The notes under the pieces: model-generated
What the model was told of the DNA's origin: nothing
What the model saw: the letters and a program-made list of their open reading frames with translations, nothing else
Databases searched by the model: none
NCBI GenBank assembly: GCA_902776435.1
Contig: CACYQB010000005.1
Coordinates: 149,656-213,655, forward strand
Source of the DNA: an uncultured Bacteroidales bacterium
Lineage (GTDB): Bacteria > Bacteroidota > Bacteroidia > Bacteroidales > Muribaculaceae
Length of the DNA: 64,000 bases
Direction: 5' to 3'
Made by a program: the position numbers and the translations under genes
Shown here: positions 210 to 27,643 of the stretch, piece by piece
How the letters are laid out: every line of letters begins with the position of its first letter
How positions within the stretch are numbered: the stretch's first letter is position 1

Positions 210-565
210 ATGAACAACAGTCATTTTTTCAAGGCTGTGCGCTGGATGCGCCGCCACAAGAAGTTAGTACTCTTTGTTATCATCATGATCCTCATTGCCA
301 TCTTGGCATCGTGCATCTCGGGAGCTGGATCAAGCGCCACGCTGGCCGTGGGAATGCTCATTGCCGGCGTCGAAGACGGCAAGCATGTCGTTGACGGACC
401 GCTGACCACCGACCTGAGCCGTGAAGGATCTCCTGACCTCCTGCTCAACGAGATTGACCAGCAGATCGTGAAAATCCGCCCCATGTCCACGCCCATCGAT
501 CAGATTTCACGCTATGCGGGCAGCAAGCACAGCGGCAGCATGGTCGTTGACTACTACAGCGTTGA
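210..565 (+). pseudogene. Resident phage-type major capsid protein, N-terminal part, interrupted by prophage
   Basis: Encodes about 118 residues of a capsid-like protein. The stretch from about residue 60, with motifs such as DGPLTTDLSREGSPDLL, NEIDQQIVKIRPMSTPIDQISRYAG and MVVDYYSV, resembles the N-terminal arm of phage major capsid proteins. The frame continues 22 bases into prophage DNA and stops at 587. The other half is at 27637-28693; joining both at the shared CGTTGA gives one in-frame gene of 468 codons plus stop. Oddly, the N-terminus is basic then strongly hydrophobic (VLFVIIMILIAILASC, about residues 20-35), like a membrane or lipoprotein signal. It is intact except for the insertion, so it is a split gene rather than a decayed one. 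Confidence 0.8.
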
Positions 566-566
566 A
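545..566. other. attL, left prophage junction inside the capsid gene
   Basis: The capsid reading frame is lost here. CGTTGA at 560-565 recurs at the right junction (27637-27642); a nearby second copy, CGTTGAC at 545-551, matches the right side over seven bases. Either crossover restores the frame; the first keeps five more codons. The short core fits a large serine recombinase, which needs only a small identical core. Confidence 0.7.
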
Positions 567-613
567 ACGATTATGATTAAAATGTAGCCACTACTAAAAA
601 CGGCTATAATTTA

Positions 614-640
614 GGTGGGCAATGTCCCACCTTTTTTATT
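614..640 (+). terminator. Hairpin with T tract near left prophage end
   Basis: GGTGGG (614-619) pairs with CCCACC (626-631) over a six-base loop and is followed by a T run. It is one of six hairpins in the prophage sharing a GGGTGG/CCACCC stem. Confidence 0.75.
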
Positions 641-647
641 ACCTTTG
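640..647 (+). promoter_or_regulatory. Bacteroidetes -7 box TACCTTTG
   Basis: TACCTTTG matches the TAnnTTTG consensus and lies 36 bases before the start of the gene at 683, directly after the terminator hairpin. No clear TTTG -33 box is seen. Confidence 0.6.
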
Positions 648-682
648 CCCGTGAAAGTTAAACCACTAAAATATTTGTAATC

Positions 683-1063
683 ATGGCAACAAAAAAGAAA
701 TTTTATTTGGTGTACCGCGCAGACAACATGGAAACGTTTCTTGATGATAACGCCTTTATATGTGACACCTATGAGGCCGCAAGAGAAATGTTTGATACCT
801 TGGTGAAAAGTTACATAATTTGGTTCAATGACAACAATAATGACAGCGTTGAATTTGAAGTATATGATGACAACTTTGACCGTGCAATATTCAACTCAGT
901 TGAGGCTAAAACAGATAACGTGATTGTTGGAAAAGACGTTGACGCGGTTAGGATTTTGCGTGTTGAAAATACAGAAGATGGAAAATATTTCATGGTTTGG
1001 ATGGATGAACAACCACGTGAAGTAATCACAACAAAAACAAGGGGTAAAAGTTACCTATTCTAA
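683..1063 (+). CDS. Unknown acidic phage protein, 126 aa
   Basis: First gene inside the left end of the prophage, with its own -7 promoter box and a terminator hairpin after it, so probably a single-gene transcript. The product is soluble-looking and acidic with many Asp, Asn and Glu residues, no signal peptide and no membrane segment. I recognise no domain. Its isolated, self-contained unit next to attL is typical of accessory (moron-like) or anti-host genes, but this is only context. Confidence 0.75.
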   Translation: MATKKKFYLVYRADNMETFLDDNAFICDTYEAAREMFDTLVKSYIIWFNDNNNDSVEFEVYDDNFDRAIFNSVEAKTDNVIVGKDVDAVRILRVENTEDGKYFMVWMDEQPREVITTKTRGKSYLF

Positions 1064-1070
1064 AACAAAA

Positions 1071-1096
1071 CCCACCGTGTTTCACAACAGGGTGGG
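1071..1096 (+). terminator. Hairpin after the 126-aa gene
   Basis: CCCACC (1071-1076) and GGTGGG (1091-1096) form a stem eight bases after the stop codon of the gene ending at 1063; an A run follows. Same stem family as the hairpin at 614. Confidence 0.6.
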
Positions 1097-1182
1097 AAAA
1101 ATAACCATTTCTAAAAATGACAAATAATATATTATGACGTGAACTTTTAATTAACCATTCATATATAAATAGTCGGTACTTT

Positions 1183-1503
1183 TTAGTTTTTCAAGTCATC
1201 ATCAACTTTTTTTATATTTCCGTGCAAAATATTGTGGCAGTCATGGCACACTGACATCAAATTGTCAGGGTCAAGTAATCTGGCCATCATTTCTTGCTTG
1301 CTCAATCCGTAGTCAAACGGTGATAATATATGATGTATGTGTTCAGCTGGTCTTAATCTTCCTTGCTGGGCACATTCCTCACATATTGGGTGGTGCATTC
1401 TGTACCACTTTGCCAATTCACGCCACTGTTTTGTTTGATACAGTGATTGCCTTTGTTTGCGTCTGGCACTTGGTTTGGGTTTGTTCTTTTTGATGGTAGG
1501 CAT
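1183..1503 (-). CDS. HNH endonuclease
   Basis: A 106-residue basic protein with the HNH fold: a CEEC knuckle, then EHIHHI, then DPDNLMSVCHDCHN with the second zinc CxxC and the terminal HNH histidine region. Phages often carry such a nuclease to cut DNA during cos packaging or as a homing enzyme. Here it is far from the terminase genes and on the opposite strand, paired with a putative PD-(D/E)XK protein, so a defence role is also possible. I chose ATG at 1503 (MPTIKKNK); a longer frame would need GTG at 1518 and would overlap the upstream gene by four bases. Confidence 0.85.
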   Translation of the reverse strand: MPTIKKNKPKPSARRKQRQSLYQTKQWRELAKWYRMHHPICEECAQQGRLRPAEHIHHILSPFDYGLSKQEMMARLLDPDNLMSVCHDCHNILHGNIKKVDDDLKN

Positions 1504-1514
1504 AACAATAAATA

Positions 1515-2015
1515 TCACTTGGGTATTATTCCACTGGTACAGGCTTGGGTATATGGCAGGTGGAAATACGGTGTTTTCACCTTTTTCTGATGTTCAGCTG
1601 GGTTGAACTCATAGTCATTGACATAAAGATTATTGCACCAAACTTGATTCCAATCTATATTATCAAGGTCATAGATGAAGTATTCCGTATCATGTGACAG
1701 TATCACGTACAACAGTTTTTCATCTGGCTTGGTGTCTTCACGCATATCACAGTACTTTGAAACCTTTAACAGGTGATTGTCATATTTGTCCATATCTTGA
1801 TTGCTGGTCTTGATTTCCACATTGAATTTACGTGTGTGACCGCTGGCAGTAAACTCAAACCTCATATCACTTGGTGCAAGCAATGCAGTCTGGGTGAATG
1901 TGACATCATACCCATTGAGTATTTGGGTAAATACCTTTTTAGTGTTGTTAAAGTCAATATCTTCTTGCTGGTTGATTCGTTCTTGTTTGATTTCATGTGC
2001 TTGTTGTTTTGTCAT
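1515..2015 (-). CDS. Putative PD-(D/E)XK-like nuclease, 166 aa
   Basis: The central part reads PSDMRFEFTAS...KFNVEIKTSNQD: an Asp, about 17 residues, then a hydrophobic strand ending in ExK. This is the arrangement of the PD-(D/E)XK nuclease core, and nothing else in the protein contradicts it, but the assignment rests on a motif only. The N-terminus is rich in Lys and Gln. It is followed at once by the HNH gene on the same strand and preceded by a small membrane protein gene, forming a three-gene leftward unit opposed to the phage structural genes. Confidence 0.6.
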   Translation of the reverse strand: MTKQQAHEIKQERINQQEDIDFNNTKKVFTQILNGYDVTFTQTALLAPSDMRFEFTASGHTRKFNVEIKTSNQDMDKYDNHLLKVSKYCDMREDTKPDEKLLYVILSHDTEYFIYDLDNIDWNQVWCNNLYVNDYEFNPAEHQKKVKTPYFHLPYTQACTSGIIPK

Positions 2016-2036
2016 AATGTTGTGTGTCTTTGTGTA

Positions 2037-2231
2037 TTATTCCGTGTCCAAGTAACTTGTTTGATGCTCGATGTTGCACAGTGTCCCATATTGGGTGATT
2101 TGTTCATATCGGTATTGGGATTGCGCCAATTTTTCAAGTCCATCTGTGATTTGGTGTGTCTGGTAGCACAGCCATCCAAGTACAACAATGATAATAATGT
2201 GTAGTGAGTTTTTGATTGTTTTCTGTTTCAT
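2037..2231 (-). CDS. Small single-pass membrane protein, 64 aa
   Basis: Starts with a basic segment (MKQKTIKN), then a hydrophobic helix (SLHIIIIVVLGWLCY), then a polar, Gln-rich tail. The longer frame to 2321 is unlikely because the AT-rich leader motif at 2241-2258 would fall inside it, exactly where other phage genes carry it upstream of their starts. First gene of the leftward unit with the two nuclease-like genes; could be a spanin-like, toxin or sensor component, none of which I can show. Confidence 0.6.
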   Translation of the reverse strand: MKQKTIKNSLHIIIIVVLGWLCYQTHQITDGLEKLAQSQYRYEQITQYGTLCNIEHQTSYLDTE

Positions 2232-2240
2232 AGTTTTATT

Positions 2241-2258
2241 CCTTTTATATATAAATAG
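2241..2258 (-). promoter_or_regulatory. AT-rich start-proximal motif (minus strand)
   Basis: Read on the minus strand this is CTATTTATATATAAAAGG, nine bases before the ATG at 2231. Closely related sequences precede five plus-strand phage genes. Confidence 0.55.
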
Positions 2259-2421
2259 TGGACAGGTTGAAAAAATGACGGTGCTGGATGAAAAAAAGTG
2301 CCAAACCCCTACCGAAAACAATAAATTTTTGAGATAGATTAAGATAAAGCATTTTTCTGGTGCAAAACCGAATCATGTAGCAAAAAAAGTAGTACCTTTG
2401 ACAAAAATGATGGTAAAAGCG

Positions 2422-2453
2422 TTTGGTTTTATGACAATATGGTAGTATATTTG
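2422..2453 (+). promoter_or_regulatory. Promoter of the structured leader RNA
   Basis: TTTG at 2422-2425 and TATATTTG at 2446-2453 are 20 bases apart, matching the Bacteroidetes -33/-7 layout. Transcription should begin near 2460. A further TACCTTTG box lies upstream at 2393-2400 and may be a second promoter. Confidence 0.7.
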
Positions 2454-2460
2454 CAACAAA

Positions 2461-2664
2461 CGAAAAACAGCATCAAGGTTAAAGTCACAGGATGGATTAG
2501 GTGACAGAAACCATGAAAGACCGAGAATCCATAGGTCTTACCATCTACAGAGGGCACTGTACAATTAGAGTGTCAGGGTGGATTATATCTAAAAAAAAAT
2601 TATAAACAAACACCGTGTGACAGTGTACGGTGGCCCCATAAAGGTTTAATGGCTGTCTGTAATT
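2461..2664 (+). ncRNA. Structured four-hairpin leader RNA with complementary loops
   Basis: Between the promoter at 2422-2453 and the gene at 2665 lie about 200 noncoding bases with four hairpins: 2477-2512 (GGTT, internal AAA/AGA loop, GTCAC paired to GTGAC and AACC), 2517-2539 (AAGACC/GGTCTT), 2553-2574 (GGCACT/AGTGTC) and 2611-2632 (CACCGT/ACGGTG). The loop of hairpin 1 has ATGGATT (2492-2498), perfectly complementary to AATCCAT in the loop of hairpin 2 (2526-2532), so a kissing-loop is possible. A second copy, GTGGATT at 2578-2584, could compete for the same loop. It may be a regulatory leader of the 160-aa gene or a separate RNA. I recognise no known riboswitch family. Confidence 0.6.
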
Positions 2665-3147
2665 ATGATAAAGATATTATCAAAAGACGGTGAGGAAATC
2701 ACCAATGTAGTGAACGAAGTGGTGGACACCACAACGAATGATGAAAAATTAAATGACGTGTATGCTAGGTACAACGCACAGTTGGAAATCAGTGAAGCGT
2801 TTGAACTCTTTGACGGTAGCGCGATTCATCTGGAAATTCCGTCAAACCAAATGCAAGCAAAGGACATTGAAATCGGTGAAGACGGATTCTTGGAAGGGCA
2901 TTTTTATTGTTACTTCAATGTCGCTGGCAAGTACTACAAAGTGACACATACGTTATCCAACTGGAAATACATCACACTCTATGAGTGGGACAGTGCAGAT
3001 GACGTTGACAACAAAAAACGGTGTAACACATACTGCCATGACCGTGACCGAAAAGGCAACATGCGGGAAGCGTACCGATACAAGTACATCAGCGACACCG
3101 AAAAGGACTATGAGTTGTTATACTCAGTGTACCAAAACGTGTATTGA
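2665..3147 (+). CDS. Unknown phage protein, 160 aa
   Basis: Acidic N-terminus, mixed aromatic C-terminal half with a Cys/His segment (KKRCNTYCHDRDR), no signal or membrane segment. I do not recognise a family. It is preceded by the long structured leader and followed by its own terminator at 3156-3189, so it seems to be a separately regulated early gene. Confidence 0.75.
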   Translation: MIKILSKDGEEITNVVNEVVDTTTNDEKLNDVYARYNAQLEISEAFELFDGSAIHLEIPSNQMQAKDIEIGEDGFLEGHFYCYFNVAGKYYKVTHTLSNWKYITLYEWDSADDVDNKKRCNTYCHDRDRKGNMREAYRYKYISDTEKDYELLYSVYQNVY

Positions 3148-3155
3148 TTGACAAG

Positions 3156-3189
3156 GGGCAGCATTCCGATTTGGGTGCTGTCCTTTTTT
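3156..3189 (+). terminator. Rho-independent terminator
   Basis: GGGCAGCA (3156-3163) pairs with TGCTGTCC (3176-3183), followed by six Ts. It ends the transcript of the 160-aa gene. The -33 TTTG of the next promoter lies in its loop. Confidence 0.8.
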
Positions 3190-3201
3190 GTATTACCTTT
3201 G
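3170..3201 (+). promoter_or_regulatory. Promoter of the small RNA candidate
   Basis: TTTG at 3170-3173 and TACCTTTG at 3194-3201 with a 20-base spacer, the same layout as the promoter at 2422-2453. Expected transcription start near 3206-3208. Confidence 0.7.
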
Positions 3202-3205
3202 CGGC

Positions 3206-3296
3206 AATCTAATTTTATAAGTTAATCATAACTTGTGAAATTTAGATTGTTAGTATTAGCCATCCTTGCTTGTGATAAGTAGGGATGGTTTTTTTG
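3206..3296 (+). ncRNA. Small RNA candidate, about 90 nt, antisense to recombinase-operon leaders
   Basis: A promoter, a long hairpin (arms 3205-3223 and 3230-3249) and a terminator hairpin (CCATCC 3260-3265, GGATGG 3283-3288, then seven Ts) leave room for a transcript of about 90 bases and no convincing protein. Bases 3238-3256 are identical to plus-strand bases at 27256-27274 and 27544-27562, so the RNA would be perfectly complementary to the mRNA leaders of two leftward genes, ending seven bases before each ATG. Its 5' arm resembles the target leader, so the antisense part may be held in the hairpin with a free GTTAGTAT end. Expression is inferred, not shown. Confidence 0.6.
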
Positions 3297-3459
3297 AAAA
3301 AATTTCAGCTGGCGTTGAAAAAATCAGATTTGCCCACTATTTATTTAATGTAAAGGTTGAAGTGATTGCAACACTTGGGGTGGTTTCCACTATCTGTCCA
3401 CCCCACACAACCTTGATAAAAAGATGGTGGGTGAATAAACAAATAAATCAGATAGTACG
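3297..3459. other. Intergenic stretch with a GGGGTGG hairpin
   Basis: No gene is supported here. It holds GGGGTGG (3377-3383) and CCACCCC (3398-3404), one of the repeated hairpins of this prophage, and an AT-rich motif at 3337-3356 resembling the start-proximal motif of other phage genes but too far from a start. Confidence 0.5.
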
Positions 3460-4878
3460 ATGTTTAATTTTACTTTTATGAACAACGCTTTAGTTGATTG
3501 TAATCTGAGTGATAAAGAATTCAGATTGCTTTACCTCATTGTGAACAATATGAGCATGAACAACACCAACGAGATTGAAATGTACAATGGATTTTTGATG
3601 GATAAACTGAATATCTGTGAAAGACAGGTGAGACGTTTGACATCAAGTCTGGTGGAAAAAGGATATATCACCAAGGTCAACACTGGTACAAAGAACAACC
3701 GCAATGCCAACGTGTACAGATTGTGTGACACAGTTGAGGACATCAGCGGTGACATAATGTGTGACATCAGCGGTGACAAAAATGTCCCCCCATATAATAC
3801 TAGAAAAATAAATAAAAATATCTCTGTATATACTGGTACTAGTACTAGGGGGGACAAAAATGTCCAAGGTGAAGATACAATGAATATCTCAGTACAGGTT
3901 GAAGATAATACCAATGCATCTGGTAACGAATACAAAGATGGTACATGCGGAGATGATGTTGATACTTCAATTGAAGTTAAGGATGCTGGTACCACCCCTC
4001 AGGTGAAGTTGTCCAAGGATGAAATACGCAAACGCAATGACTATATCTCAGCTGTGTACAAGAAACTAGACACCAAGTTTGATTTCCTGTACAGTCTCAG
4101 GACTTATTCATTATACGTTGATGAGGTTAACACCATTGCAAAGATTATCACCGAGGCACAGGGACACAGTGATTGGTTCACTTCAAAGCAGTGGGATAAG
4201 CTGACATGGTACTGTGAACGGTTCGTGAAGATTACCGAGGTAAAAGACAACTACTTCAACGGTTGTACAAAGAAGAATGCGGATGCTGATACTATCTCAG
4301 TGTATGGTGACACAGCTGGTAAGTGCAATGATGGTTCAGATGAAAGTACAAATGATAATGGGGGGGTCGCGCCGCAAAAGTGCAAGCCGTTCAAGCGTGA
4401 AGATGCAGTTGCTTGGGCAGAAAAGACCGTGACCAAGTTTAATGACTTCACCAGCTGGGATGACAGCATAATGGCAAAGTTCACCACCAAGTATGGCAAG
4501 GGATGGGATGAGGGCAAAGACCCCAATGCTTGCAGACTCTACAACATTGCAGCATCCGTTGCAAGTGACTATTACTGGACATTGGAAAATTCAACGGATA
4601 ACACCCCAACCCCAACCGAGGAAAATGCAGACCTTGCGCCGTGGGAAACACCGTTCAACTATACATATACATCAGAAACCCCACAGGTGGCACATGAGAG
4701 CATATCGGAGTTTGAACCCACCAACTACACCACCGATAACGATGAAGCCATCAGCACGAATTTAACGGTGTCTGGTGAAGTTGAACCCGATGCAGAGGAC
4801 TATGCGTTTGATGACTATATCAGTATGATGACCACCAACCGTTCAACCCCCAACTACGGCTATGCATATGGTACATAA
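3460..4878 (+). CDS. Replication-initiator-like winged-helix protein, 472 aa
   Basis: The N-terminal 85 residues look like a winged helix-turn-helix domain (CNLSDKEFRLLYLIVNNM, then a recognition-helix region ICERQVRRLTSSLVEKGYI and a basic wing), as in phage replication initiators of the O or DnaD-like kind. The middle is low-complexity and acidic; a second ordered region lies at about 185-270. The C-terminal 170 residues are acidic and repetitive. It is the only replication-type gene in the prophage, which otherwise lacks helicase and polymerase genes and would need those of the host. A role as transcription regulator is the alternative. Confidence 0.65.
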   Translation: MFNFTFMNNALVDCNLSDKEFRLLYLIVNNMSMNNTNEIEMYNGFLMDKLNICERQVRRLTSSLVEKGYITKVNTGTKNNRNANVYRLCDTVEDISGDIMCDISGDKNVPPYNTRKINKNISVYTGTSTRGDKNVQGEDTMNISVQVEDNTNASGNEYKDGTCGDDVDTSIEVKDAGTTPQVKLSKDEIRKRNDYISAVYKKLDTKFDFLYSLRTYSLYVDEVNTIAKIITEAQGHSDWFTSKQWDKLTWYCERFVKITEVKDNYFNGCTKKNADADTISVYGDTAGKCNDGSDESTNDNGGVAPQKCKPFKREDAVAWAEKTVTKFNDFTSWDDSIMAKFTTKYGKGWDEGKDPNACRLYNIAASVASDYYWTLENSTDNTPTPTEENADLAPWETPFNYTYTSETPQVAHESISEFEPTNYTTDNDEAISTNLTVSGEVEPDAEDYAFDDYISMMTTNRSTPNYGYAYGT

Positions 4879-5027
4879 CATCACAAAATATGTTCCAAAT
4901 GTCATAAAAAGTGTCCGATACGTCACAATCTTGGCTTCATGTGCCCAAATTGTAGTACCTTTTCACAGGATGCCCCTATTTATATTTAGACGGACAGAAA
5001 ACTATAATCATTTAATACATATATATT

Positions 5028-5414
5028 ATGACAAAGACAAAAACAAACCTGAAGATGAGTGCAAGCAATGCACCGATTTACCCAAGCAAACTTGACGCAA
5101 TGTTGTACGTAGAAAAGAGAGTAGCAAATGACCTCTGCATCCAGACCTATGGTCGTGAATTGGGATGGAACAAAGAAATTGAAGCTATCTGTGACCTATG
5201 GACACCTGAAGAAATTGTTGACCGAGCAATGACGGCAACCAAGTACTACAATGTGGTGACGGGCAGAATGGAAGAAGCAGATGAACGGTACACCAAGTTT
5301 GATTGGTGGGAACTTATCGATGAAGACACACTCTACACAATAGATGATGATTCGCTATTTTGCAGTTTTGACAATTACGTAGAACTGTATAACCTCAATG
5401 AATTAGCTGGATAA
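5028..5414 (+). CDS. Unknown phage protein, 128 aa
   Basis: Acidic and aromatic-rich toward the C-terminus, no membrane segment, no motif I recognise. ATG at 5028 follows an AT-rich leader; an alternative start is 5052. A CTATTTATATTT sequence lies at 4976. A terminator hairpin follows at 5443-5473. Confidence 0.7.
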   Translation: MTKTKTNLKMSASNAPIYPSKLDAMLYVEKRVANDLCIQTYGRELGWNKEIEAICDLWTPEEIVDRAMTATKYYNVVTGRMEEADERYTKFDWWELIDEDTLYTIDDDSLFCSFDNYVELYNLNELAG

Positions 5415-5442
5415 ACGGCAATTCAGTCACCGATACGAAATA

Positions 5443-5473
5443 CCACCAGAGCGACAGGGAGCGTTTCTGGTGG
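5443..5473 (+). terminator. Hairpin after the 128-aa gene
   Basis: CCACCAGA (5443-5450) pairs with TCTGGTGG (5466-5473), followed by CATTTTG. It separates the early region from the late genes. Confidence 0.7.
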
Positions 5474-5623
5474 CATTTTGCATCTTATATAATGCCATTA
5501 TCATTTAACCGACAACGAGCGACAGGAACACCCCAAAATCAATTTGAAGAAAACACACGATTCCACAACAATACTTGATAAAAATGGTGGCAAGACTATA
5601 TTTATATATAAAAGCAAAGAAAT

Positions 5624-5938
5624 ATGGAAGTACATGAAATCTTCAAACCCATTGATGGGTACAGTGACACTTATGAAGTGTCAAACACTGGCAAGGTACG
5701 GTCAGTGAAGCGTAACAAATTACTCAAGCCACAGACAAACACAAAATGGGAATATCAACAGGTAATGTTGTGGAAAAACTGCCATGCAAAACTGCACTAC
5801 ATTCACCGACTGGTAGCAACAGCATTTGTGAATAACCCCAATAATTATCATTACGTAAAGTTTATTGACGGTGACTGCCACAACTGCAATGCTGACAATC
5901 TCTACTGGGCAAAACAAATAAATCCTAAAACAAAGTGA
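5624..5938 (+). CDS. NUMOD4/HNH-type homing-endonuclease-like protein, probably degenerate
   Basis: The N-terminus (FKPIDGYSDTYEVSNTGKVRS) is a NUMOD4 motif and the rest follows the HNH_3 pattern (HRLVATAFVNNP, IDGDCHNCNADNLYW). In the usual motif the centre reads NHIDGD; here it is KFIDGD, so the Asn-His pair is replaced by Lys-Phe. The first His and the NADNL segment remain. The nuclease may therefore be inactive. It sits just before terS, a common place for HNH genes in cos phages, with the AT-rich motif 5596-5615 upstream. Confidence 0.8.
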   Translation: MEVHEIFKPIDGYSDTYEVSNTGKVRSVKRNKLLKPQTNTKWEYQQVMLWKNCHAKLHYIHRLVATAFVNNPNNYHYVKFIDGDCHNCNADNLYWAKQINPKTK

Positions 5939-5942
5939 AGTA

Positions 5943-6317
5943 ATGGCAAAGGTAAACAAATACAGCGAATACCGAGAGGAAACACAACAGTTTATGACCT
6001 CAGTTGAAAAGTACCTCAAACAAAAGTATGGCAAGATTGAGTCACAATGGGTGGGTCAGTTGAATATGCTGGCCACAAATTATGACCTTTTCATACTTGC
6101 CAAAGAACGAGTGGCACAGGATGGTTTAATGATACCCAACCGTTTTGGCACACTTGAAAAACACCCCATGTTAAAGCAGATTACAGACACCAACCATCAA
6201 ATTATAAAGATGGTACAGGAGTTTGGACTGTCACCAAATGCAAAAGGAAAAATCAAACAGCCAAAGGACAGCAAAGATGAGGATAATGACCTGATTGCGG
6301 AATTGCTTAATGACTGA
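5943..6317 (+). CDS. terS: Terminase small subunit, P27 family
   Basis: 124 residues, helical, ending with FGLSPNAKGKI, which is the typical P27-family C-terminal signature. It recognises phage DNA and hands it to the large subunit for packaging. Five bases follow the HNH-like gene and the end overlaps the terL start by eight bases, so the three are cotranscribed. Confidence 0.85.
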   Translation: MAKVNKYSEYREETQQFMTSVEKYLKQKYGKIESQWVGQLNMLATNYDLFILAKERVAQDGLMIPNRFGTLEKHPMLKQITDTNHQIIKMVQEFGLSPNAKGKIKQPKDSKDEDNDLIAELLND

Positions 6318-7950: not shown

Positions 7951-7956
7951 AGCAGA

Positions 7957-7975
7957 CTATTTATAATATATCAGG
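7957..7975 (+). promoter_or_regulatory. AT-rich start-proximal motif before portal gene
   Basis: CTATTTATAATATATCAGG, 15 bases before the portal ATG at 7991. Same family as the motifs at 5596, 11988, 15393 and 24261. Confidence 0.55.
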
Positions 7976-7990
7976 TAAGTTAATTTGACT

Positions 7991-11378: not shown

Positions 11379-11401
11379 TTGAAAAACAACATACAAACAA
11401 T

Positions 11402-11965
11402 ATGGAAAAGGAAATCAGAAACATTCAGAATATGATAAAACGTGCAGGTGAGGAATCACGCACAGTTGAGGGTACTGCCATAGTATTCAATTCAGACAGT
11501 GTTGACATGGGATTCATTGAGCAGATTGACCCCACCGCTGTTACCGAGGAAACAATCAGGTCAAGTGACGTGTTTGCCTATCTTGACCACAATGACAACA
11601 GGGGTGTATTGGCAAGATGTAAAAACGGTAATGGCTCACTCCAGTTGTGGCTTGATGAAGCTGGGCTGCATTACAGATTTGAAGCACCAAAAACACAGCT
11701 GGGTGATGAACTGTTGAGTTATCTGTCTAGGGGTGAAATCACGGCATCATCATTTGCGTTTACGGTTGCAAAGGGTGGTGACATTTGGTCAAGGGACAAT
11801 GATGGCACTGTAAGACGCAAAATCACAAAGATTGATAGACTGTTTGATGTATCACCTGTATTTCAACCAGCGTATGAGACCACCAGCGTAGCACAACGCA
11901 AAGTTGAAGAAATCAATACCATTATGGAAAAACTGAACGCATTGTCAAAGAAATTTGAAGATTGA
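11402..11965 (+). CDS. Prohead maturation protease, HK97/S78 family
   Basis: About 187 residues. It cleaves the capsid scaffold region during head maturation. Typical S78 segments are visible: EGTAIVFNS near the N-terminus, VFAYLDHND with the catalytic His, and SRGEITASSFAF with the catalytic Ser, followed by DVSPVFQPAY. It precedes the capsid gene as usual. ATG 11402 (MEKEIRNI) is preferred; ATG 11369 would overlap the upstream gene by ten bases and is possible. Confidence 0.9.
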   Translation: MEKEIRNIQNMIKRAGEESRTVEGTAIVFNSDSVDMGFIEQIDPTAVTEETIRSSDVFAYLDHNDNRGVLARCKNGNGSLQLWLDEAGLHYRFEAPKTQLGDELLSYLSRGEITASSFAFTVAKGGDIWSRDNDGTVRRKITKIDRLFDVSPVFQPAYETTSVAQRKVEEINTIMEKLNALSKKFED

Positions 11966-11987
11966 CAAATCATTTTGCAAACAAGTC

Positions 11988-12008
11988 CATATTTATAATA
12001 TATAAAAG
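11988..12008 (+). promoter_or_regulatory. AT-rich start-proximal motif before prophage capsid gene
   Basis: CATATTTATAATATATAAAAG, 11 bases before the ATG at 12020. No good -7 TAnnTTTG box is seen between this gene and the protease gene. Confidence 0.6.
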
Positions 12009-12019
12009 CATTTAAGACT

Positions 12020-15320: not shown

Positions 15321-15348
15321 TAAGACACAAACACACAACCAAAAATTA

Positions 15349-15380: not shown

Positions 15381-15392
15381 GTTGTCAAGTGG

Positions 15393-15412: not shown

Positions 15413-15420
15413 AAAGGATT

Positions 15421-18375: not shown

Positions 18376-18382
18376 TTGAGAT

Positions 18383-21070: not shown

Positions 21071-24000
21071 TTCAAATAAAGAACATAGGCAAGCACAGCG
21101 GCAAGGTAACACAATCAAAGGTAACAAGTGGTGGATTTGCAAGCAGCGTGACCAACATTGTTGCAAATGAAACACAGGGGGTCAATATATGGGGTCAGTA
21201 CCATGACCACACAGGTGATGTTGACGGTGATATGATGGTCAATGGGAATATCACAACGTCTGGAGACCTCACCATTGACGGTGATGCACAATGCAGTGAA
21301 CTAATAGCCACAACAGTAGGTGCAGACACTGTTACTGCAAACCGTGTTGAAGCAATCACAAGCAAATCTGATAACCTGTACATCAACAACAATGCAAACG
21401 TTGGGGGTGATATAAGTGCAGATGATGGTCATTTCACAGGTGACATTGATTGCCATGATATTGACTGTAACTTGATTGAAAGTGCAGACATAACAACTGA
21501 ATACCTCACAGTAACCAAACAGGCTCATTTCTTCAGCCTAATCATTGATGAAATTAAATCAGTCGGTGGCCAGATAATCCTCAGTGCTGGAAATGCAACC
21601 ATTGATTTCGTTGAACAAGTTGGTGGGCAATATGTACTGTACTGGAAAAAGGATGATGGTGATAACGGAATTTCAAACCAGTTCAAGAGGAATGACCAAG
21701 TTATCTGTCAGACATTCAACATGACTGACTTGGATGGTGAAGTGAGCAACAAATATTATTGGGCAGTGGTCACAACCGTTGGTGATGACACAATCACATT
21801 AAACGGAGAAGAAACAGAATGCAACTACATTGCATTATCACCAACTGACTATGACGGTACAAGTGTACCTGAAGCAGGTGATAAAATCTGTCAACTAGGT
21901 TACAGGGGAACAGATGACCCAGACAGACAATCAGCAATCATATTGAGTGCATACAAGTCACCAGACCCAAATGTCAAAGCACCATCAATTGTGCAGTACA
22001 AGGGTATCAACTCATTCTCATTGGAAGGGTGCATTGTCAATCAGATGTCTCCAGATGCCAACATCTTCACAGGTGATTTCAGAGTGGAAAACAACGGTGC
22101 AATTACAGACGTTGTGGACTTGATACAGGGTCAACACCCACAAGTCATAACCAACAGTGAACAGGCATGGATAATGGCAGACAGTTCTGGAAAAACCTAC
22201 TACTTGACGGATTACCAAAACCTGCCCACAACCATTCAAGTGTATCTGGGAAGTGAACTAATACCATACAGTCAATGGGTAACAGGCAGTCAAATAAAAT
22301 TCAAAAACAAAACTTATAGACTTACAGGCACAACTCCAGCACCATCAACTTACACAGGTTTGGGTATAGATGCAATTACACGCAACACCAACGATTGCAC
22401 TTTAACATGGGGTTATAATGCCAACACTTACATTGACCCCGATACAGGTACATCAACAAATGGTGGTAGGAATGAATCAAATACAACATTAGGACTAACC
22501 ATTGTATTTACCCACAATGGCACAACATACACTGTGACCAAGAATGTACCTTTTAATGTCATAAAAGCAAGTGCAGTGACACAGGGTGCAGATGCTGAAT
22601 TTTATAAACTCATGGTGGATAAACTTGACTTGACAGTTACGCTTGACAACAAACTAACATGCAAGGTCAATGCAAAGGTTTATCACATTAAGGGCAACAC
22701 CATTGAGCAACAGACAGACTTGACGGATTACACTGCTAATATCTTACTGTCAAATAGCAGTACCGTAACACTTACCAAATCAACCTACTTTTATAGAACA
22801 TCAAACATTAGTAATTCTTACAGTTCAATGACTAACCCACCCACATCTGCAACGCTGAGACTGTACAAGAATGGCACATTGGTTGATGAGGTAGCAACAA
22901 GTATAAAATTTGACGCTGGCAGCATCTTCACCATAACAGACAATGCCATTACAAGTGCAGTTCAACAGGCACAGACATACACGGATGGACAGATTACCAC
23001 AGTCAATGCAAGCATATCACAAATTGAACAGACTGCCAACAGTATATCATCCAGAGTCACCAACATTGAAAATGATTATGTCACATCATCTGAACTGACA
23101 CAGACTGCCAATAATATACAACTCAATGTCTATGATGAACTGAAGAACAAAACAGGTATTGATATATCACAGGGACAAATCACCCTAAATGGCAACACTG
23201 TTGTTAATGGCAACCTATCACTGACTGACCAAAATACAGGTTTCAGTCTGATTGGTGATGGTGGTATTACTCAAATCATGCCTCAATCAATAGGAAGTTA
23301 TAGTGATTTTACTGCTAAATCTACAACCACTATTCACAAGTACAGCACAGATGAAAGTCCTGGTGATTATGACAGCAATACCAACACATATCAATTTGAC
23401 TTTTACCAGTCAATTAATATTGGAACGGTAAAAGCAGGTCAGACAATCACATTTGCACCCATTTCACGCAATTACTACGTAAAAGGAAATCAGGTAAACA
23501 TTGCGGCATATTATGAAAACTCACATACTTGCACCATTTATGAAGATAATGTATCAATGGCAACTGGAGTGCTGTACAACACCAACCTCAGTTACACGTC
23601 AAATGGTGGTAACGTTAGTGTGCAGATACATGACCGTGTTGACATTAGTGGGTCATACTTTAGACAAAACAATGTCACAAACCCCTATGAGGAAGACATT
23701 AAAGCGGCAACTGAGAAAATACACATTACCGTGACCATACCCAATGATGCTTTTATGCTGATTGGTTATGATGGAATTGCTGTTAATTTTGGCACTAGTG
23801 CAACAGCATATATTGGTACAGAATCAACTACCATCAAGTATGGACAACACGGTATCAAGGTATCAAACAATGGACTGCAAAAGTGGAACGGCTCCAGCTG
23901 GGTTGGTATCAATAACAAAAAGGTCATTACAATGACAACTGACCAGACACTGACCAATGACGTTGACCTGATTGTCTATAATTCAGCAACACAACGTACA

Positions 24001-24198
24001 CTGACATTACCCAATAACCTTGAAATGGGCAAAACAGTCTATATCAAGAAACTTGGGTCAACCAATCTGAAGTTGCAGTCATCAACATCAAACATCTATT
24101 TGCAGAATAGTACATCTGGAACTAACGCCACAACGGTATCAACATTTGTGTTCTTGGTGTGGGATGGTTCACATTGGTTACTTGGGTACGTTGGTTAA
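21067..24198 (+). CDS. Tail fibre / receptor-binding protein
   Basis: 1043 residues. The N-terminus has fibre-like repeats (DMMVNGNITTSGDLTIDG, later NVGGDISADDGHFTGDIDC), then mixed beta domains, then a coiled segment near TTVNASISQIEQTANSISSRV and a second one. The C-terminal 100 residues (AYIGTESTTIKYGQHGIKV, TLTLPNNLEMGKTVYIKK) look like a tip domain. As the last structural gene it most likely binds the host surface. A terminator hairpin follows. Confidence 0.82.
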   Translation: MIQIKNIGKHSGKVTQSKVTSGGFASSVTNIVANETQGVNIWGQYHDHTGDVDGDMMVNGNITTSGDLTIDGDAQCSELIATTVGADTVTANRVEAITSKSDNLYINNNANVGGDISADDGHFTGDIDCHDIDCNLIESADITTEYLTVTKQAHFFSLIIDEIKSVGGQIILSAGNATIDFVEQVGGQYVLYWKKDDGDNGISNQFKRNDQVICQTFNMTDLDGEVSNKYYWAVVTTVGDDTITLNGEETECNYIALSPTDYDGTSVPEAGDKICQLGYRGTDDPDRQSAIILSAYKSPDPNVKAPSIVQYKGINSFSLEGCIVNQMSPDANIFTGDFRVENNGAITDVVDLIQGQHPQVITNSEQAWIMADSSGKTYYLTDYQNLPTTIQVYLGSELIPYSQWVTGSQIKFKNKTYRLTGTTPAPSTYTGLGIDAITRNTNDCTLTWGYNANTYIDPDTGTSTNGGRNESNTTLGLTIVFTHNGTTYTVTKNVPFNVIKASAVTQGADAEFYKLMVDKLDLTVTLDNKLTCKVNAKVYHIKGNTIEQQTDLTDYTANILLSNSSTVTLTKSTYFYRTSNISNSYSSMTNPPTSATLRLYKNGTLVDEVATSIKFDAGSIFTITDNAITSAVQQAQTYTDGQITTVNASISQIEQTANSISSRVTNIENDYVTSSELTQTANNIQLNVYDELKNKTGIDISQGQITLNGNTVVNGNLSLTDQNTGFSLIGDGGITQIMPQSIGSYSDFTAKSTTTIHKYSTDESPGDYDSNTNTYQFDFYQSINIGTVKAGQTITFAPISRNYYVKGNQVNIAAYYENSHTCTIYEDNVSMATGVLYNTNLSYTSNGGNVSVQIHDRVDISGSYFRQNNVTNPYEEDIKAATEKIHITVTIPNDAFMLIGYDGIAVNFGTSATAYIGTESTTIKYGQHGIKVSNNGLQKWNGSSWVGINNKKVITMTTDQTLTNDVDLIVYNSATQRTLTLPNNLEMGKTVYIKKLGSTNLKLQSSTSNIYLQNSTSGTNATTVSTFVFLVWDGSHWLLGYVG

Positions 24199-24223
24199 TA
24201 CTAACATCATATTTCTTTGTTTG

Positions 24224-24247
24224 GGGTGGCAGAAATGTCACCCTTTT
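24224..24247 (+). terminator. Terminator after tail fibre gene
   Basis: GGGTGGCA (24224-24231) pairs with TGTCACCC (24236-24243) around GAAA, then four Ts. Belongs to the shared GGGTGG stem family. Confidence 0.75.
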
Positions 24248-24260
24248 CCCATCATCAAAA

Positions 24261-24278
24261 CTATTTATTGTAAAAGGG
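24261..24278 (+). promoter_or_regulatory. AT-rich start-proximal motif before holin-like gene
   Basis: CTATTTATTGTAAAAGGG, nine bases before the ATG at 24288. Confidence 0.5.
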
Positions 24279-24287
24279 AAACACACT

Positions 24288-24587
24288 ATGGAAAACACAT
24301 ATAACACACAACATCATTGGTCAGACCTCACCATCAAAGACAAACTGTCATACATTGTTGCATTTGCTTTGATTGCGTCTGGTATCATCATTGCATTCCT
24401 GTCATTCTTCCTAAACGCATACAACATTGCCACAGGTGTATTGCTTTACATTGGACAGGCATTTGTAATCGGTGGTGGCTTGGTTGGTGCCAGCGTTTAT
24501 TTTAGAAGCAAATGGGTTGAGTTTAACACCAATGCCAAAAGGGAAATTGACCAGCGTATTGATGAACTGTCCAAACGCATTGAATGA
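24288..24587 (+). CDS. Holin-like small membrane protein, 99 aa
   Basis: Polar N-terminus (MENTYNTQHHWSDLTIKD), two hydrophobic helices (YIVAFALIASGIIIAFLSFFL and GVLLYIGQAFVIGGGLVGASVYF) separated by a short turn, and a charged coiled C-terminus (REIDQRIDELSKRIE). Size, topology and position after the tail fibre fit a holin. ATG 24288 is supported by the AT-rich motif just upstream and by the terminator lying inside any longer frame. No endolysin gene follows. Confidence 0.7.
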   Translation: MENTYNTQHHWSDLTIKDKLSYIVAFALIASGIIIAFLSFFLNAYNIATGVLLYIGQAFVIGGGLVGASVYFRSKWVEFNTNAKREIDQRIDELSKRIE

Positions 24588-24640
24588 TATATCAGCACCG
24601 TTTATTGCAAGGGATTTCGCTACCGTGAAACAGGGCTGAT

Positions 24641-24670
24641 GGGGAAGATGATGGTGATATATTCTTCCCC
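24641..24670 (+). terminator. Hairpin after holin-like gene
   Basis: GGGGAAGA (24641-24648) pairs with TCTTCCCC (24663-24670); no strong T run directly after. Confidence 0.5.
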
Positions 24671-24676
24671 AAATCT

Positions 24677-24707
24677 TTTGTTGCACTAATTATTGTTGCT
24701 AACTTTG
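24677..24707 (+). promoter_or_regulatory. Promoter of the dockerin cargo gene
   Basis: TTTG (24677-24680) and TAACTTTG (24700-24707), 19 bases apart: a standard host-type promoter, so this gene can be read in the lysogen independently of phage late expression. Confidence 0.7.
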
Positions 24708-24744
24708 TAGCAATTAACATTATTCACTTATAAACTATTTTATT

Positions 24745-25194
24745 ATGAAGAAATTATTGGTTTTGTTGTTCCTTATGCTGATTGGAACTAGCATATATGC
24801 TCAAAAGAGTTATGTTAATGTTGTTGGTGAACCATATAATGATTCTGATAGTCGTGTATGGCTAAATGGTGCAGTTCCATCTGATATGAAGAAGAATTAT
24901 TATTATAAGACTGATTCAGTATTATTAGGTGATGTTCTTAATATGTTAGCAGAACGGGGATTTGTAATAGAGCAGATGAGTTGCACTAATGTTGGTAGTA
25001 GTGGTTATATGAGAGAGGCTATTATTTTGTCCAAAGATGGTACAACACCTTCTCAAACGATTAGCAAAGGTGATGTAAATATAGATGGTGAAGTAAATAT
25101 TGCTGATGTAAATGAAGTAATTAGTTTAATATTGGGTATAGTTAGGGAACATCCAGAAATACTAGAGCAAATAAAGAAACAAACAAACCACTAA
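24745..25194 (+). CDS. Secreted dockerin-domain protein carried by the prophage
   Basis: 149 residues: a signal peptide (MKKLLVLLFLMLIGTSIYAQ), a short unknown domain, then a type I dockerin-like repeat GDVNIDGEVNIADVNEVISL with calcium-binding-loop Asp/Asn residues, and a polar helix. Only one dockerin half is clear. Host proteins at 40590, 42154 and 58518 carry similar repeats, so the phage gene was probably acquired from or serves a Bacteroidales host. Own host-type promoter and place between holin-like gene and recombinase suggest lysogenic conversion cargo that alters the cell surface or secretome (inference). Confidence 0.8.
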   Translation: MKKLLVLLFLMLIGTSIYAQKSYVNVVGEPYNDSDSRVWLNGAVPSDMKKNYYYKTDSVLLGDVLNMLAERGFVIEQMSCTNVGSSGYMREAIILSKDGTTPSQTISKGDVNIDGEVNIADVNEVISLILGIVREHPEILEQIKKQTNH

Positions 25195-25316
25195 TTTTTT
25201 ACTTTTTTAATCCCCCTATCATATCTTTTTGACTGACAAGACGTTAAACCGCCCCCAACTTTTCTTTATACAAAAGGTAAAATCCAGCAGTTTCTAAATT
25301 GGGGCAATATATAAAT

Positions 25317-25338
25317 AAGGGGTCAATTTAGACCCCTT
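25317..25338 (-). terminator. Terminator of the recombinase operon
   Basis: AAGGGGTC and GACCCCTT pair around AATTTA, five bases beyond the recombinase stop codon on its strand. Only a weak T run. Confidence 0.7.
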
Positions 25339-25342
25339 ATTG

Positions 25343-26908
25343 TTATTTGCGTTTTTTGCCATACCTTTTACGTGTGAACCGTCTGTTTTGCTTCACATAG
25401 TCAGTGAAATCTACTCCAGCACCCCTTGCATCAACTAAACGCAATTTTGCCCCTTGGCTGCTTGCTACGTATGTCCAATAACTGTTATCAATGTAGCCAA
25501 TTTTGTTAATGACCTGTAGTTTGTATTCATGTTCACCTATTGGGGTTACAATGATTTTCTCAATGACCTTGCCAATGATTTCCTTTTTCATTTCATCAGT
25601 CATTTCATTCATACTGAAATTAAGATATTTATCTTCACCTCTCAAAAATTCTTCCATTCTTGCATTGTCAGTTAAAAGGTCAGTGACTTCCTTTTGGATT
25701 TTTGCTATTTCCTTTTCCACCCTTTCAATCACAGCATTCATCTTTTCAGTTGAGAAGTGAACAGGCTGCACAATATTCATTTCAATTGCCCTATCAATCT
25801 GTTTTTTCAATTCTTCAATCTTCTCATTTTTGCTGGATATCTTGGTACGGTTTTCTTCAATGCGCTCGGTGTATTCTGTGGTGTTGGTTTTGCGGTCAGT
25901 ACTGAGCATATTATTGTAAAGATATGAAGCTGTGAACCAGCACAACACGTCACAGGGGTTGATAGACAGACAATATTTTTTTGGCCCAATATTCATACAA
26001 TAGCTGGTTGACCCTCTATCTGCAATAAACGTATAACCAGTGTCACCATCCTTTAAGATGCTGTGGCAGTAGTAGATTTCAGTTGTTTTGTGTCTTTTGG
26101 GGTGGGTAGCCAATTTTGCCTGTGCCTTTTCAAATAACTCATGGGTGATGATTTGTGGGTAGCCATTTTCACCAATATATGCCCTGTCCTTTAATATGGC
26201 ATTCATTTGTTTGTTTCCCTTAGTAACATTGGGGTTTGGGTGATATATTCCCAAATCCACCAATTCCTTGAATATGCCGCCAACCGACTTTTCACTGTTA
26301 ACATAAGCGGTAAAAATCCGTCTCACCAAATCTACAGTATCAGGGTTGATGACAAAGTGTTTGGTTTCATCCAACTTGTAACCCAACTTGATACGGCCAC
26401 CATTATATTTGCCCTCTGCCTTATTTCTTGCTTTACCCCTTGCAAAACGCTTTTGCTTAATTTCCATTTCCTGTTTTGCCAAAGTCACCATTACATTCAG
26501 AATCAATTCCTGTGTTAAGTCCACAGTGCCATCTTCCTTTAACAGATGTATTTCTGGTGTCTTGACAATCAGATTGACTTTGTGGGTCACAAAATATTCT
26601 TTCATGTGGTAGAATGGAAGTTCAACACGGGCAAGCCTTGACACTTCCCATACATAAACAGATTTGATGTTGGTGTCGCTGTCCAAGGTGGTCAGCAATT
26701 CTTCAACTTCCTGTTTGTACAGTTCATTTTGTTTGATTGCGCTGGCACCCTTAGACTTGATGATAACCAAGTTATCACGGCTGTAACCGTCATTGATAGC
26801 ATAGCCAATCATTTCATTAACTTGTGATTCAAGTTCCTGATACACCGTTGAAACACGGCCCCAAATGACAGCCTTTTCATTACTGTTCTTTGTTTTGTTC
26901 TTTGCCAT
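25343..26908 (-). CDS. Large serine recombinase (phage integrase)
   Basis: 521 residues that integrate and excise the prophage. N-terminal resolvase domain with the catalytic Ser in GRVSTVYQ (residue 20) and the SRLAR motif; a recombinase domain around residues 165-260 with GYPQIITHELFEKAQAKL; Cys-containing zinc-ribbon-like region (about 280-320); a coiled coil (about 350-420) and a very basic tail. This architecture belongs to large serine integrases, which act on short cores and need a directionality factor for excision. It ends a leftward operon behind two small genes. Confidence 0.95.
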   Translation of the reverse strand: MAKNKTKNSNEKAVIWGRVSTVYQELESQVNEMIGYAINDGYSRDNLVIIKSKGASAIKQNELYKQEVEELLTTLDSDTNIKSVYVWEVSRLARVELPFYHMKEYFVTHKVNLIVKTPEIHLLKEDGTVDLTQELILNVMVTLAKQEMEIKQKRFARGKARNKAEGKYNGGRIKLGYKLDETKHFVINPDTVDLVRRIFTAYVNSEKSVGGIFKELVDLGIYHPNPNVTKGNKQMNAILKDRAYIGENGYPQIITHELFEKAQAKLATHPKRHKTTEIYYCHSILKDGDTGYTFIADRGSTSYCMNIGPKKYCLSINPCDVLCWFTASYLYNNMLSTDRKTNTTEYTERIEENRTKISSKNEKIEELKKQIDRAIEMNIVQPVHFSTEKMNAVIERVEKEIAKIQKEVTDLLTDNARMEEFLRGEDKYLNFSMNEMTDEMKKEIIGKVIEKIIVTPIGEHEYKLQVINKIGYIDNSYWTYVASSQGAKLRLVDARGAGVDFTDYVKQNRRFTRKRYGKKRK

Positions 26909-26962
26909 AATATATCGTTTTTATTTAATTAAGTCTATTGTAAGAATTTATCAAGTTTTATT

Positions 26963-26987
26963 GGGGTGGAGTGTTGCGCCCCACCCC
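26963..26987 (-). terminator. GGGGTGG hairpin between recombinase and small gene
   Basis: GGGGTGG (26963-26969) and CCACCCC (26981-26987) form a seven-pair stem. No T run on the minus strand, so it may attenuate rather than fully stop transcription into the recombinase gene. Confidence 0.5.
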
Positions 26988-26996
26988 ATTTGTTGT

Positions 26997-27248
26997 TTAT
27001 TGGTTTGCCCAATTGTCACCGCTGGTTGGGTCAATACCCTGTCTTTGGAGTGACTTTGCGGTCACAATCTTGTAACACTTGGGGTCAAGTTCATAATCAA
27101 TGAGGTCAACAATGAAGTAATCACGCTTGAACTGTTGCAACTCCCAAGAATCAATGTCGCTGTAATCCCATCCGTTGACAATCTTGCCTGTGGTCTTATT
27201 GACTGCAAAGTGGGTGTAATTCTGATTGTAAATGCTGTTGGTCTTCAT
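26997..27248 (-). CDS. Small protein of the recombinase operon, 83 aa
   Basis: Soluble, aromatic-rich (FAVNKTTGKIVNGWDYSDID). I do not recognise a domain. It starts seven bases after a leader element identical to the one before the gene at 27536, and both elements are complementary to the small RNA candidate at 3206-3296. Beside a large serine recombinase, one of these two small proteins could be the recombination directionality factor or a lysogeny regulator; nothing in the sequence proves it. Confidence 0.75.
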   Translation of the reverse strand: MKTNSIYNQNYTHFAVNKTTGKIVNGWDYSDIDSWELQQFKRDYFIVDLIDYELDPKCYKIVTAKSLQRQGIDPTSGDNWANQ

Positions 27249-27255
27249 AACTTTT

Positions 27256-27274
27256 AAATTTAGATTGTTAGTAT
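27256..27274 (-). promoter_or_regulatory. Leader element antisense to the small RNA (copy 1)
   Basis: On the minus strand ATACTAACAATCTAAATTT, ending seven bases before the ATG at 27248. The same 19 bases occur before the ATG at 27536. The plus-strand sequence recurs in the RNA candidate at 3238-3256. Confidence 0.75.
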
Positions 27275-27278
27275 AATT

Positions 27279-27301
27279 GGGGTGGGTGGTGTGCCCACCC
27301 C
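27279..27301 (-). terminator. GGGGTGGG hairpin between the two small genes
   Basis: GGGGTGGG (27279-27286) pairs with CCCACCCC (27294-27301), eight perfect pairs, between the stop of the 74-aa gene and the leader of the 83-aa gene. Could be an attenuator inside the operon. Confidence 0.55.
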
Positions 27302-27311
27302 TTGATTTAAT

Positions 27312-27536
27312 TTAAGCGTTTCTGAGGTCAGCCAACTCATATTCTAACAGGTTGTTCACAGCCTGTGTGTAACTCTTACCCTCTGCTTCAGCCTTAACAG
27401 CGGTGTGCAAGTCCAAAGTGTCAATGAGGATTGCAATGTTTTCCATCATTGCTGATTGGTTAATCACGTTGTGGTAAGTAAGTACGTTAAACACGTCTAA
27501 CTCCTTGTCAAAAAATGTCACCTTGAAAGTCTTCAT
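27312..27536 (-). CDS. Small protein of the recombinase operon, 74 aa
   Basis: Begins MKTFKVTFFDKELDVFNVLTY and has a helical second half; acidic, no motif recognised. First gene of the leftward operon, directly beside attR, with a clear promoter at 27579-27610. ATG at 27536 is chosen because the leader element and not a coding extension lies upstream. Candidate lysogeny regulator or directionality factor by position only. Confidence 0.75.
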   Translation of the reverse strand: MKTFKVTFFDKELDVFNVLTYHNVINQSAMMENIAILIDTLDLHTAVKAEAEGKSYTQAVNNLLEYELADLRNA

Positions 27537-27543
27537 AATAGTA

Positions 27544-27562
27544 AAATTTAGATTGTTAGTAT
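27544..27562 (-). promoter_or_regulatory. Leader element antisense to the small RNA (copy 2)
   Basis: Same 19 bases as copy 1, also seven bases before an ATG. It is preceded by a second AATACTAAC, so the mRNA would begin with a short direct repeat. Plus-strand identity with 3238-3257 extends to 20 bases. Confidence 0.75.
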
Positions 27563-27578
27563 TGTTAGTATTACACTG

Positions 27579-27610
27579 CAAATATACTAGCAGTGTTTGG
27601 ACTGGCCAAA
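27579..27610 (-). promoter_or_regulatory. Promoter of the recombinase operon
   Basis: On the minus strand TTTG (27607-27610) and TATATTTG (27579-27586), 20 bases apart, about 27 bases inside attR. Predicted start near 27572 gives a leader of about 36 bases containing the repeated element. Confidence 0.75.
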
Positions 27611-27636
27611 TTTTTTGGCTATTTTTTAGTCAGAAA

Positions 27637-27643
27637 CGTTGAC
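27637..27643. other. attR, right prophage junction
   Basis: CGTTGAC here matches CGTTGA at 560-565 and CGTTGAC at 545-551. From here the resident capsid reading frame and GC-rich composition resume. Confidence 0.7.

Follow-up and report, generated by a model that had tools for sequence, protein, structure and literature searches.

The split capsid gene and its prophage

The stretch of DNA analyzed here, called the window throughout, comprises 64,000 nucleotides (G000:C5:149656-213655) of the 43-contig genome G000 of an uncultured Bacteroidales bacterium, and contains a capsid gene of phage origin that is split in two by a prophage. The capsid gene is called resident, to distinguish it from that of the prophage itself. 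We infer that the genus is Sodaliphilus, as the capsid match in genome G061 (C118:6146-7540) is the match in JAGHSV010000126.1, Candidatus Sodaliphilus aphodohippi. Contigs with capsid homologues are titled Muribaculaceae, Prevotellaceae, Porphyromonadaceae, Bacteroidales and Candidatus Sodaliphilus, and many come from rumen or other gut samples. The features of the split, including the left and right attachment sites (attL and attR), are listed with lengths in base pairs (bp) and amino acids (aa).

210..565, + strand: left part of the resident SU10-type capsid gene, codons 1-117 plus the core (phrog_26635)
560..565, + strand: attL core CGTTGA
566..27642, + strand: inserted prophage, 27,077 bp counted core to core
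25343..26908, - strand: large serine integrase (P0003), 521 aa, with resolvase and recombinase domains, adjoining attR
27637..27642, + strand: attR core CGTTGA
27643..28693, + strand: right part of the resident capsid gene (SU10_MCP in Pfam, phrog_26635)

The left capsid frame (210-587) reads into phage DNA past position 565 and stops at 587, while the right frame spans 27593-28693 and ends at 28693. The left piece matches positions 10-117 of the phrog_26635 profile and the right piece positions 111-470, the latter also being recognized by Pfam as SU10_MCP, the SU10 major capsid protein (E-value (E) 1.4e-42). An earlier note on this DNA had described a capsid frame broken at the left junction and resumed at the right one, and both frames were found as described. 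Its 468-codon join through CGTTGA is likewise borne out: 117 codons lie to the left of the junction valine and 351 run from the valine on, the join of 565 to 27643 is exact, and the halves continue each other undamaged, the gene being split at codons 117-119. The element boundaries given in that note stand at this join, with the exception of a start at 545, which is about 20 bases too early. The possibility that the halves are two unrelated genes was ruled out by the phrog_26635 matches and the alignment, and a chance six-base match at the join was rejected because homologues run through it. The intact gene that the note expected in relatives was found in the related genome G097 (L075), where it is uninterrupted, has the same CGTTGA core and reads AGCGTTGACACC at the join; G120 (L055) reads AGCGTGGACACC at this place.

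The cores of attL and attR lie 27,077 bp apart. The phage attachment site (attP), rebuilt from both phage ends, is an imperfect inverted repeat with 20 of 28 pairs matching, a value reached by 0 of 600 random pairs taken from the phage and given the same wide search as the real pair. This wide test was designed after a narrow one with a shift range of 3 bases had detected no symmetry at either this site (attP1, p 0.74) or that of the second phage described below (attP2, p 0.29). The symmetry centre is positioned inside the core, between the G and the A that form the first two bases of the Asp-119 codon. The bacterial attachment site (attB) is not symmetric (10 of 28 pairs). The aspartate at the join and the bases GA are kept in 81/81 distinct capsid genes, as counted on alignment columns of genes drawn from 99 frames in 99 loci. 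The shared core, the symmetric attP and the serine integrase beside attR support the proposal that the capsid gene served as attB.

Integrase P0003 contains PF00239 (E 1.7e-12) followed by PF07508 (E 3.3e-7) and matches the phrog_95 integrase family with E 1.9e-48. Packaging, head and tail genes of its own are all present in the inserted phage, its structural genes lying on the strand of the resident capsid, and together with the serine integrase they identify the element as a temperate-type phage, in agreement with the earlier assignment.

3460..4878, + strand: phage replication initiation protein, weak match (phrog_270, E 2.1e-8)
5943..6317, + strand: phage terminase small subunit (phrog_83, E 6.7e-14)
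6295..7950, + strand: phage terminase large subunit (family searches)
7985..9211, + strand: phage portal protein (family searches)
11369..11965, + strand: phage head maturation protease (phrog_80, E 3.8e-38)
12020..13306, + strand: the phage's own major capsid protein (PF05065), of a family that differs from that of the resident capsid
13338..15320, + strand: head-tail adaptor, head closure, one unassigned frame, tail terminator and major tail protein

Related terminases are present in 18 IMG/VR loci, the nearest being 93% identical, and no piece of the capsid gene was found in the available stretches of these loci. Three of the 18 (L214, L215 and L218) carry integrases 42-44% identical to P0003. 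A single-protein IMG/VR search with P0003 confirmed no relative; the 42-44% relatives were later reached via the phage terminase, so that search proves no absence. In L214, L215 and L218 the integrase lies near one end on the terminase strand, while in the inserted phage it lies at the other end on the opposite strand, and the integrase module appears from this gene order to have been rearranged between them.

Phage-derived genes kept across the genus

Matches to the resident genes were scored by profile in a comparison set of 101 genomes of the genus. The capsid profile, built from 13 capsids, matched in 96 of them. A single match covering at least 422 of the 468 profile positions is present in 88 of the 96, one of which (G096) has an internal TAG. 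The remaining eight comprise G000 with its insertion, G063 with a full-length and a short overlapping match, G007 and G073 with a 56-bp insert, G084 and G015 with frame breaks, G091, where the gene is cut by contig ends, and G064, where the match is only the capsid of a linked prophage cluster. No match to the capsid profile was obtained in G020, G033, G110, G114 or G116. Outside the genus, the capsid was matched in 2 of 24 genomes of the order.

The ratio of nonsynonymous to synonymous substitution rates (dN/dS), taken as a simple pairwise count, comes to 0.034, 0.017 and 0.028 where dS is below 0.35, as it is in three capsid pairs. The 25 closest pairs span 0.017 to 0.57, and a median of 0.25 with a largest value of 0.63 was obtained from 2,224 pairs, the values for less close pairs probably being unreliable through saturated or uneven dS. 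Judged by these ratios, the resident capsid is under purifying selection. For the capsid halves of G000 the ratio is 0.14 and 0.10 relative to G120, and 0.13 and 0.125 relative to G097; between G120 and G097 the same halves yield 0.14 and 0.13. The halves thus resemble intact copies and show no sign of relaxed selection after the insertion, which would fit a recent insertion or repeated excision.

The N-terminus of the resident capsid (window 210-330 and relatives) contains a hydrophobic, membrane-anchor-like stretch, for example KKLVLFVIIMILIAILASC; the capsids of the linked phage-like clusters L033 and L130 are likewise hydrophobic at the N-terminus. Between the scaffold-like and capsid genes, at window positions 104-175, lies a short tandem repeat with the units GATAAGA and GATAAAA. 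A second, partial capsid fragment of about 104 residues (G115:C8:129489-129800) is located a few kb from the intact capsid gene of G115.

At least four phage-head genes are dispersed over the chromosome: those for the capsid, the portal, the terminase and a 670-aa virion protein. A P22-type portal gene lies upstream of the scaffold-like gene and the capsid, and the open reading frames (ORFs) just upstream of it are on the opposite strand, several of them also being neighbors in relatives; only some of the neighbors of portal and capsid were put through family searches. The other members and neighbors of the set in the window are as follows.

1..98, + strand: end of a 135-aa scaffold-like gene that starts upstream of the window (L021:19647), named by its position between portal and capsid
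28690..29088, + strand: M15 peptidase (endolysin-type) beside the capsid gene (PF08291, E 5.1e-19; phrog_894, E 1e-36)
54513..56384, - strand: resident terminase large subunit, 623 aa, 25.8 kb downstream of the capsid end
56381..58393, - strand: 670-aa protein (phrog_32516), overlapping the terminase gene

For the scaffold-like gene, BLAST gives weak matches to its positional counterparts in L130 (E 1.9e-5) and L142 (E 1.7e-4), and phrog_22323 is matched with E 0.0048. The resident terminase is 41% identical to the terminase of Bacteroides phage BF1-TP2, in whose record the gene is labeled tail spike with a terminase structure match noted. Its ATPase- and nuclease-type residues are conserved in comparison with six relatives. 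For the 670-aa family, profile searches of Pfam, PHROG and PDB returned no function, and a single-sequence structure prediction of the protein gave a mean predicted local distance difference test score (pLDDT) of 34.7.

Like the capsid, these genes are close to universal in the genus. The portal was matched in 95 of 101 genomes (in G064, only that of the linked prophage cluster), the resident terminase also in 95, and the 670-aa protein in 99, with short fragments only in G068 and G112. The clade of G000 contains 37 genomes with portals at least 79% identical. In 36 of them, by positions compared by eye, the capsid is on the portal's contig at a distance of less than 1 kb (for G000, portal to left half). 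The 37th, G033, contains the resident portal and terminase, yet no capsid match. G097 carries, on one contig and in the same order, the portal, the capsid, the 34978-35565 gene, the terminase and the 670-aa gene. The 34978-35565 gene had been guessed to be a housekeeping control, a guess that was dropped, the gene being present in only 37 of the 101 genomes.

In genomes of the other clade the portal is mostly far from the capsid or on another contig. The single contig of G062 illustrates the dispersal, with the 670-aa homologue at 926 kb, the terminase at 937 kb, the portal at 1,358 kb, a connector-like gene at 1,540 kb and the capsid at 1,894 kb. This connector-like gene was matched in 51 of 101 genomes, in G064 only weakly and in a prophage. 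The viral contig L132 holds in one row a 670-aa-like ORF (weak, E 4e-5), terminase, scaffold-like, capsid, connector-like and portal genes, and linked clusters with further genes are found in G064, G096 and phage BF1-TP2. Most simply, the resident genes would descend from phages with linked clusters and would then have been kept and scattered. Six genomes of the G000 clade (G098:C76, G033:C15, G035:C10, G115:C5, G024:C13 and G113:C22) have a further terminase large subunit with 40-42% identity to the resident terminase, possibly part of another phage-derived set.

Gene transfer agents (GTAs) share two traits with the resident set: phage-derived head and packaging genes kept across the genus under purifying selection, as measured on the capsid, and a location at several chromosomal places with no full prophage around them. 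The set therefore looks domesticated and possibly GTA-like. One point of the earlier reading changes: the split gene was not found to belong to a competing prophage at this place, and is a genus-conserved member of several scattered phage-derived genes.

A second phage in the capsid gene

In the IMG/VR contig 3300011002_000616 (42,941 bp) a capsid gene of the Sodaliphilus type is present as two halves, 38.1 kb from each other and joined to phage DNA. This second phage has its own serine integrase (P0004, 486 aa), which is 27% identical to P0003 over about 400 aa. Its core AAGATGCA is present at both junctions and corresponds to Lys-252 (L004 numbering). In the attP of this phage 23 of 28 pairs are symmetric, a score that 0 of 600 random pairs reached. 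Among the 81 capsid genes the second-site core is AAGATGCA in 60 and AAAATGCA in 17, with AA kept in 81/81. The capsid flanks of the second phage nearly match G007.

Traces of the same site are seen in three genomes. G007 (L034, G007:C52) and G073 (L140, G073:C92) carry at codon ~252 the 56-bp insert mentioned above, together with a repeated AAG. The inserts are alike in 55 of 56 bases in two species with differing flanking codons, and resemble both attP arms of the second phage with no phage between. They were found in these 2 of the 101 genomes only, and the exact pattern of the insert was not found in IMG/VR. In G091, two contigs end exactly in the second-site core (AAGATG), as would agree with the assembly of coexisting integrated and empty sites. 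So the capsid gene is a recurrent attachment gene, used by at least two unrelated phages, as far as a census can tell that is not unbiased, the cases of insertion having come via capsid-based searches.

The contig L134 (IMG/VR 3300035327_000422) is a mirror image in which each gene occurs twice in opposite orientation, and is probably an assembly artefact.

Interpretation and relation to known systems

From the insertion with its junctions, the intact relatives, the conserved scattered set and the second unrelated phage, a course of events can be proposed that we regard as highly probable as a whole. A temperate phage of about 27 kb would have entered Sodaliphilus, where its large serine integrase would have recombined attP with an attB in the resident capsid gene, the recombination at CGTTGA splitting the capsid gene of the genus-retained phage-derived set. 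The lysogen is expected to be without full capsid protein, because translation of the upstream fragment would stop a few residues into phage-coded sequence, and the downstream part is left without a start of its own. Excision by the integrase and a directionality factor would rejoin the capsid gene exactly. We infer the making of the insertion by the integrase, the capsid loss and the exact restoration from the sequence.

Several observations weigh against parts of this proposal. Of the scanned frames, several of which are without a family, none was assigned as a repressor, lysis gene or directionality factor, and no excised form or empty site of the inserted phage was seen in G000. The full CGTTGA is present in only 13 of the 81 distinct capsid genes, and many relatives may therefore not host this site. 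As to a working particle, G000 has no match to the connector-like gene known from the other clade, and a search that was not exhaustive revealed no resident tail genes in this genome.

The packaging motor gene, the portal and the capsid are all kept, which argues for DNA packaging and hence for a GTA-like role of the resident set, a role that we propose tentatively and consider slightly less likely than not. Two functions had been suggested for the arrangement in the earlier note. A reversible switch is consistent with the undamaged halves and with their dN/dS, which resembles that of intact copies, leaving against it that no excised form of this phage was seen. The disarming of a competing phage is not supported as worded, because the split gene is genus-conserved and stands among scattered phage-derived genes rather than in another prophage. 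The phage may interfere with a gene-transfer-like system.

We give an even chance to neutral convenience, with the capsid gene as a conserved yet dispensable landing site whose loss has no selected effect. Both symmetry centres fall in codons of residues kept in 81/81 capsid genes, long serine integrases in four further genomes of the genus (G096, G081, G122 and G016) lie on contigs other than those of the capsid genes of these genomes, and the second phage was found through a capsid search, so that the recurrence is not an unbiased one. The use of two sites in one 1.4-kb gene by two integrases only 27% identical, and the second-site traces in G007, G073 and G091, are less readily explained by convenience. 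The same recurrence at two sites, together with the retention of packaging genes by the resident set, would favor adaptive targeting, in which integration is selected since it stops gene-transfer particles and the lysis for them; as the search was biased toward the capsid and the gene set is possibly incomplete in the G000 clade, adaptive targeting seems unlikely.

A decaying prophage remnant with no working set would account for the broken capsid frames in G015 and G084, the interrupted ones in G007 and G073, the absence of one gene from some genomes, such as the capsid from G033, and the lack of resident tail genes in the search made. Against such decay, the genes are near-universal in the genus with mostly intact frames, dN/dS is low in the closest pairs and the terminase motif residues are kept, and we consider a remnant rather improbable. 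That the element is a satellite with the resident set as its helper, as its position in a capsid gene and the shared strand of its structural genes might suggest, is extremely improbable given that the element carries both terminase subunits and portal, protease, capsid, connector and tail genes of its own.

Helper-embedded phage-inducible chromosomal islands (HE-PICIs) offer the closest comparison. In PMC10111431, the HE-PICI 11capE lies inside a prophage capsid gene with a 10-bp identity block, and many more cases at 14 late-gene sites are described; the use of a capsid gene as attB is thus not new in itself. That account and the present one have in common a mobile element in a capsid gene, a short identity block (10 bp in the HE-PICI, 6 bp for the inserted phage), restoration of the gene by excision, and several elements at several sites in phage late genes. 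The inserted phage shares with HE-PICIs the integration within a phage late gene, here a retained capsid gene. It differs in having its own head and tail genes and in lying in a gene retained genus-wide; with its own predicted terminase, portal, capsid and tail genes it would not be a helper-dependent satellite. The word "serine" is absent from the main text of PMC10111431. The integrases of such islands are probably of the tyrosine type.

Integration that splits a host gene and excision that restores it are also the behavior of the comK prophage in Listeria. The likeness lies in the split gene restored on excision, and the difference in that excision is regulated at comK and that the gene split here is phage-derived. 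Prophages inside prophages are described in E. coli (PMC8112680); they resemble our case in an attB within phage-derived DNA, but their attB is described there as host-chromosome-derived, and "capsid" is absent from the main text.

The alphaproteobacterial GTAs (RcGTA, CcGTA and Bartonella GTA) likewise consist of structural and packaging genes of phage origin that have been domesticated and retained in a lineage. Their encoding at several places, in dispersed operons, is stated in PMC12946183. The resident set has in contrast an SU10-type capsid and P22-type portal ancestry, belongs to another phylum, is known from genes alone and, in a search that was not exhaustive, revealed no tail genes. 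PMC12946183 also reports that GTAs are prominent in human-gut Oscillospiraceae and Ruminococcaceae and that a Bacteroides phage carries out lateral transduction; its main text does not contain "Muribacul-" or "Prevotella". Among the matches listed in openly licensed literature there was no GTA in Bacteroidales, no phage using a GTA capsid gene as attB and no full phage in a genus-wide retained capsid gene.

The element is a prophage of an ordinary kind, and what is unusual is its location: it occupies the capsid gene of a scattered phage-head set retained by the genus. An extended scenario, in which a Sodaliphilus GTA with SU10-type capsid, P22-type portal and scattered genes is switched off by lysogeny and on by excision, and in which unrelated phages repeatedly adopted its capsid gene as attB in a conflict between phage and GTA, is quite doubtful when taken together. 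At least two unrelated phages use as their landing site a capsid gene that is kept across the genus. Should the set make particles, it would be a GTA in an animal-gut Bacteroidales genus, with natural on/off control by lysogeny; if it makes none, there is still the genus-wide retention of phage packaging genes.

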